Part shown: in pieces, positions 4,333 through 4,527 of the stretch | Layout: the number at the start of each line of letters is the position of its first letter | How positions within the stretch are numbered: the first letter of the stretch is position 1 | Source of the DNA: a virus | Direction: 5' to 3' (one strand) | DNA length: 64,000 nucleotides | Virus record (IMG/VR): IMGVR_UViG_3300024502_000011 | Location: 1 to 64,000 of that record | Program-made: the position numbers and the translations under genes | Notes under the pieces: generated by a model | Seen by the model: only the letters and a program-made list of their open reading frames with translations | Database searches by the model: none | What the model was told of the DNA's origin: nothing

Positions 4333-4527
4333 TTAACCAGGAGGTTGGCTTAGAAGCAGCCATCCTTTAAAGAGTGAATCGTAGCTCCGGCCAAGACGGT
4401 TGAAAAATTATCGTGGGTATTAGAAAATCTTTGTAGAATATTAATGTCTAATACTTGGCTGCATAAAGTCTAGAAATAGATCGGCAATTCTACTATGGAT
4501 TCTTTGGCGTAATAGCACACTGGTTAA
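4333..4527 (+). ncRNA. 23S rRNA GTPase-associated-centre-like RNA with insertion
   Basis: Block 1 (4337-4376) matches bacterial 23S rRNA from about E. coli nt 1052 to 1091, differing at about 4 of 40 positions. Block 2 (4507-4524) matches about 1091-1108 with one difference in 18. Together they are helices 42-44, the L11-binding and factor-binding centre. The equivalents of A1067 and A1095 are kept, and the 1058/1080 pair is changed on both sides (U-A to G-C). A 130-nt insertion (4377-4506) splits helix 44. The ends TTAACCAG (4333-4340) and CTGGTTAA (4520-4527) form a perfect 8-bp stem. The RNA fills the gap between two tRNA-Ser genes (ends 4329, starts 4530) and is probably cut out with them. 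rRNA numbering is from memory; a decoy or ribosome-factor role is inference. Confidence 0.85.

Follow-up and report, generated by a model that had tools for sequence, protein, structure and literature searches.

A phage RNA resembling the GTPase-associated centre of 23S rRNA: family, fold and putative interaction with ribosomal protein uL11

Comparison with described systems

The GTPase-associated centre (GAC) of bacterial 23S rRNA (H42-H44, E. coli positions 1051-1108; RF02541) includes the helices H43 and H44, which are tightly bound by the C-terminal domain of ribosomal protein L11 (uL11); this subdomain is also the thiopeptide site (PMC3592554). Mimicry of a host RNA element by a phage is described for the Racrs, non-coding RNAs that imitate CRISPR repeats and capture the proteins that bind them (PMC10651486). 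GOLLD and ROOL are large, ornate Rfam families of structured RNAs from phages and mobile elements, some of which reportedly lie with tRNA genes (see also PMC12286853). Bacteriophage T4 encodes the stable RNAs C and D (rnaC, rnaD) in its tRNA cluster, without an assigned function. Phage proteins that act on the ribosome are known, whereas a phage RNA that copies a ribosomal domain apparently is not; in phiKZ, phage proteins contacting ribosomes and stalk proteins were reported (PMC13282480).

The window analyzed here is a stretch of 64,000 nucleotides from the record of a T4-like virus of 124,014 bases, which carries genes for UvsX, a T4-type DNA polymerase and ribonucleotide reductase; the best named match of the polymerase is to cyanophages (47% identity). 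An element of 195 nt (4333-4527, plus strand), located by Rfam, 23S alignment, held-out profiles and a family alignment, lies inside the tRNA cluster and is single-copy in the 124-kb record. Over two aligned blocks it is identical to the E. coli and Salmonella 23S GAC (1052-1108) at 52/57 positions, and it shares the secondary structure, the 1082-1086 pair and the bases at 1060-1088 and 1087-1102. Unlike the 23S GAC, the phage RNA comprises 57 nt of about 2900, is free-standing and phage-encoded, and has its own closing stem, an insert between 1090 and 1091, a UUUG linker, A1101 and a relaxed loop. Only the tip of H42, H43 and H44 are present, flanked by tRNA genes, and the element is thus distinct from a full-length 23S rRNA. 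Its likeness to the Racrs lies in the way of working, although the sequence is 23S-like and not that of a CRISPR repeat, and protein capture is here only putative. GOLLD and ROOL covariance models of Rfam found no match in the scanned stretch of the window or in 20 related loci, and we know of no rRNA mimicry by either family. The T4 stable RNAs C and D were rejected as members, their sequences being without the GAC motif.

At permissive thresholds, Rfam searches of the same stretch of the window, the 20 related loci and three single elements gave nothing beyond fragments of LSU rRNA, tRNAs and a single distant group I intron, and no family of Rfam 15 covers the RNA. No description of such an RNA was found in open-access papers, the scope of the literature search, in agreement with the earlier note on this DNA, which knew of none. 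To our knowledge, a phage RNA mimicking a ribosomal domain is of an undescribed kind and constitutes a new RNA class.

The element in the window and its surroundings

All features given here are on the plus strand. The 5' GAC block (4337-4375) is the equivalent of E. coli 1052-1090, that is H43 and the 5' side of H44, with U1060 at 4345, A1067 at 4352 and A1088 at 4373. The 3' GAC block (4507-4524) corresponds to 1091-1108 and contains the H44 loop GCGUAAUAGC, A1095 (4511) and the phage-specific change A1101 (4517). The five differences from 23S rRNA are 1058 U>G, 1080 A>C, 1089 A>G, 1090 A>U and 1101 U>A. Between the blocks lies a structured insert of 127 nt (4376-4502) with the base helix GAATC/GATTC and an internal hairpin (about 4417-4454), followed by the UUUG linker (4503-4506), which by the family counts is conserved and specific to the phage family. 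The ends form a perfect 8-bp stem, TTAACCAG (4333-4340, the H42 equivalent) pairing with CTGGTTAA (4520-4527), backed by the 23S alignment and by a 9-bp helix of the family in which all nine pairs covary. Among the open reading frames of the window, none of 60 aa or more lies over the RNA. The structural claims of the earlier note were borne out: two 23S halves in order with about 5 differences in 58 positions (exactly 5/57), A1067 and A1095 equivalents kept, co-variation of 1058 with 1080 (a compensatory change), a perfect end stem, and a fit between two tRNA-Ser genes, one ending near 4329 and the other starting at 4530.

Of these two genes, tRNA-Ser(GCT) (4530-4619) was called by ARAGORN and Rfam, and the upstream tRNA-Ser(TGA) (4240-4329) was missed by ARAGORN and labelled tRNA-Sec by Rfam (RF01852, match 4241-4326, 49 bits); it is assigned to serine because its anticodon is TGA. 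Elsewhere in the cluster are two clearly different tandem tRNA-Trp(CCA) genes (3802-3962), a tRNA-Ile(TAT) (3970-4062) whose variable region is unusually long, the Rfam alignment showing about 19 extra nt, and an ARAGORN tRNA-Asn call with the unusual anticodon ATT (3272-3361), probably a misfolded or degenerate tRNA. An AAA ATPase (phrog_2376; 4764-5819) lies directly after the RNA/tRNA block, with a relative near the RNA in L134 and L207. The tRNA island also encodes a polynucleotide kinase with a PNKP-type phosphatase domain (5943-6866), as in T4 tRNA repair. A gene for L11 was looked for in the 124-kb record and is absent.

In the LSU model search that the earlier note had proposed, the Rfam bacterial model scored 31.6 bits on the 5' block (216 bases searched, E 2.5e-8) and the archaeal model 32.7 bits (3.5 kb searched), but both (RF02541/RF02540) stayed below the 50-bit gathering score, because the element holds a 23S fragment only. 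Profiles built from the copies of other phages, with relatives of the window left out, recovered the 5' block at E 1.5e-14 and the 3' block at 7.1e-7 within the 64 kb; the next best match had E >1.

Family, fold and conservation

Two independent IMG/VR scans, anchored on a 5' and on a 3' exact word, together with named phages gave at least 113 distinct elements with both halves, and one scan of a genome collection added further copies. IMG/VR contains a less common 20-mer 27 times, and 6/81 sampled elements have it; from this, a few hundred IMG/VR members are estimated (about 365, a rough figure with a wide error). The carriers are large phages of many environments, and jumbo and tRNA-rich phages such as GAP32, CBB, Serratia BF, pf16 and XacN1 are among them. 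Named members include Serratia phage BF, the Erwinia SNUABM phages, Kaldavass, Cronobacter GAP32, Pectobacterium CBB, Xanthomonas XbC2, XaC1 and XacN1, Aeromonas 4_4572, and Pseudomonas Astolliot, Milchi, UNO-G1W1 and pf16; in these genomes the RNA stretch is without annotation or lies under short hypothetical ORFs only. Copies of the genome scan are on contigs binned as Clostridia, Bacteroidota (Pricia), Nitrospira, Bdellovibrio and Parcubacteria, and in two of them (L224, L226) the adjoining genes match phage families. Absence or scrambling in related phages, which the earlier note had named as evidence against the RNA, is not what was observed: a whole family was found. One phage (L061) carries two different GAC-mimic RNAs in tandem, at 5138 and 5456. 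Matches in a plasmid collection (531 records) were rejected; they cover the 5' block only, at most 26% of the query among the matches listed, and resemble rrn operons carried on plasmids.

The nearest tRNA or tmRNA is co-directional in all 78 loci having one, and lies within 200 nt of the RNA in 58 of these 78 (30 expected under random placement). Most copies look like parts of tRNA transcription units or operons. An intrinsic terminator follows within 110 nt in 5/113 copies against 0.8 expected, an excess by which independent units also exist. No recurrent protein partner was found, the commonest neighbour family (8/160 loci) being a homing endonuclease, and a host target is therefore indicated. 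An RNA ligase/kinase/phosphoesterase is a neighbour in four loci, and a 2'-5' RNA ligase adjoins the XacN1 copy. In five loci (L012, L067, L139, L172, L226) a DUF2828/DUF7788 protein that also matches the 'RNA-binding protein' phrog_850 recurs near the RNA; we take it to be TROVE/Ro-like.

Covariation was assessed on 78 dereplicated cores with shuffles and slid frames as controls. In the terminal helix, 9/9 pairs are altered on both sides, and 87% of pairs are kept against 50% in shuffles and at most 47% in slid frames. Changes on both sides occur at 3/3 pairs of the H43 base (1057-1059/1079-1081, 99% paired) and at 4/4 pairs of the insert base helix. The tertiary pair 1082-1086, also encoded in the Rfam LSU consensus, is UA in 41, CG in 24 and AU in 5 of the phage RNAs; 1060-1088 is invariant and 1087-1102 is 97% paired. 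H43, H44, 1082-1086, 1060-1088 and 1087-1102, which make up the minimal uL11-binding fold, are thus all present. The 23S control comprised 81 cellular copies (25 distinct GAC sequences). They came from a sample of genomes around three phage-bearing ones and were retrieved by their similarity to Salmonella 23S rRNA, which biases them to conserved sequences. In all 81, position 1082 is U and 1086 is A; the phage RNAs have therefore altered both together and kept the fold. Position 1101 is A in 82/84 phage copies and U in all 81 cellular ones, and A1101 is able to pair with U1090. The common insert site, UUUG and A1101 point to one old phage lineage and away from repeated capture.

Passive debris of host 23S rRNA, or an assembly artefact, could be suspected, as a few records labelled as phage do contain true host 23S rRNA. 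One of these is L123 (Paenibacillus phage Pd_22F), with an essentially complete 23S rRNA (2,925/2,941 reference positions), probably a host assembly join. The element, however, is intergenic in many independent complete genomes, has the insert at 1090/1091, the UUUG and an A1101 seen in 0/81 cellular copies, and covaries; debris or artefact has a negligible probability and is ruled out by the family, the covariation and the derived features. Comparative sequence evidence thus makes the GAC fold and the family near certain. The earlier note's view of a phage-encoded GAC copy is strongly supported by the family, the covariation of the fold and the lack of an Rfam family.

The insert is always at the one site, is variable and structured, and measures 37-334 nt. 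Several unrelated classes exist, with internal motifs (CACCCCGNAANNGGUAAGG; GUGCGAAAUGC...GUGAUGUGC; CAGGGGAAGGACAAG...GACCCUUAGAG) common to distant phages. Between the window and its relative L024, five pairs of the predicted consensus fold differ at both partners; four of the five lie in the insert, and no pair is broken. About 15 copies have an extra hairpin in H43. An intron is an unlikely reading of the insert, which is lineage-specific and structured, with compensating changes outside it (U1090-A1101). The GAC might be a mere folding or anchoring scaffold, perhaps docking via uL11, with the insert as the active part (ribozyme, sensor or protein-binding platform). The motifs strongly recurrent across distant phages and the compensatory changes that back the insert fold of the window are consistent with such a role, but the inserts are unrelated between classes, and the GAC mimic L015:3700-3786 has none; it has a 9-bp closing stem and lies about 300 nt before a tRNA-Ser. 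The GAC is therefore the universal part, and the scaffold reading is rather unlikely.

Conservation was counted on exact-word-anchored copies, each half being scored solely on those whose anchor word lay in the opposite half. The fold-critical positions U1060, G1063, C1072 and C1075 (n=87) and C1092, G1093, A1098 and G1099 (n=84) are 100% conserved. The loop that faces drugs and factors is relaxed: A1067 is kept in 78% (G in 17%), G1068 in 72% and A1070 in 74%, against 100% in the sampled 23S rRNAs. A1095 is kept in 95% of the family against 100% in these, and the window retains both A1067 and A1095. By these counts, relaxation of A1067, G1068 and A1070 fits better with binding of the L11 C-terminal domain, or with the fold itself, than with mimicry of the factor or thiostrepton site.

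A free GAC acting in trans, in the ribosome or on EF-G, EF-Tu or RelA, was proposed in the earlier note and would be in keeping with the complete GAC fold. The relaxed bases are, however, those facing the factors, and the base of H42, the stalk-protein site and the sarcin-ricin loop are absent, so that little factor affinity is expected; we regard this action as very improbable. By analogy with phage tRNAs that counter anticodon nucleases, the RNA could instead act as a decoy against a host defence or toxin recognizing the GAC of 23S rRNA, and so protect the translation of the phage. Its place in tRNA islands and the RNA-repair enzymes among some neighbours would suit a decoy of this sort. Against it, we know of no defence that recognizes the GAC, and the exposed A1067, G1068 and A1070 are relaxed, although they are probably what a nuclease or modifying enzyme would recognize. 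The Racrs offer a precedent for phage RNA mimicry (PMC10651486), and on balance shielding from a defence appears unlikely.

Putative function and implications

The best explanation, to which we give about even odds (roughly 0.5) from sequence data, is that the RNA would be a uL11-binding decoy or platform perturbing the L11-dependent functions of the ribosome. It would be a stand-alone non-coding RNA of large, tRNA-rich phages, co-transcribed with tRNAs, whose core folds independently as the 23S GAC, nearly identical to the classical minimal uL11-binding fragment, with a lineage-specific structured insert plugged into helix 44. Host uL11 would be bound during synthesis of the RNA, and kept or taken from assembling 50S subunits. 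As decoy or RNP platform, the RNA could alter uL11-dependent functions such as factor turnover, RelA-dependent (p)ppGpp synthesis or the stalk region; alternatively, uL11 may serve the phage RNA as a landing platform. The insert may tune the effect on uL11 or contribute a second activity. Sequence comparison establishes the family, the GAC fold and the tRNA context; we infer transcription, uL11 binding and a physiological effect.

Exchange of uL11 on mature ribosomes may be too slow for a decoy, and simple titration does not account for inserts that are large, structured and equipped with conserved motifs of their own. The phage RNA might also be kept for some other GAC ligand. Loss of uL11 would be expected to weaken RelA activation, as in relC mutants. 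Changes of A1067 reportedly had no dramatic effect on RelA activation by starved complexes (PMC5829649), and the stringent response is therefore only one option among several. Titration of L11, damping of the stringent response and shielding from a defence, all suggested in the earlier note, are conceivable consequences, and its interpretation as a whole is partly supported.

In a more specific form of the uL11-binding reading, proposed tentatively and with a chance somewhat short of even, a constant GAC head would capture host uL11 and carry structured effector inserts that can be exchanged, and large phages of many bacterial phyla would use such RNAs to redirect host translation or stringent signalling. 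The family offers natural GAC variants for ribosome biochemistry, with swapped 1082-1086 pairs and a domain inserted in H44, and the cultured members Cronobacter GAP32, Serratia BF, Pseudomonas pf16 and Aeromonas 4_4572 are suited to direct testing. The finding would account for an intergenic stretch left unannotated in the genomes of dozens of phages. If true, RNA mimicry by phages would reach beyond CRISPR repeats, and a strategy of host takeover or anti-defence would be aimed at uL11 and the GTPase centre.
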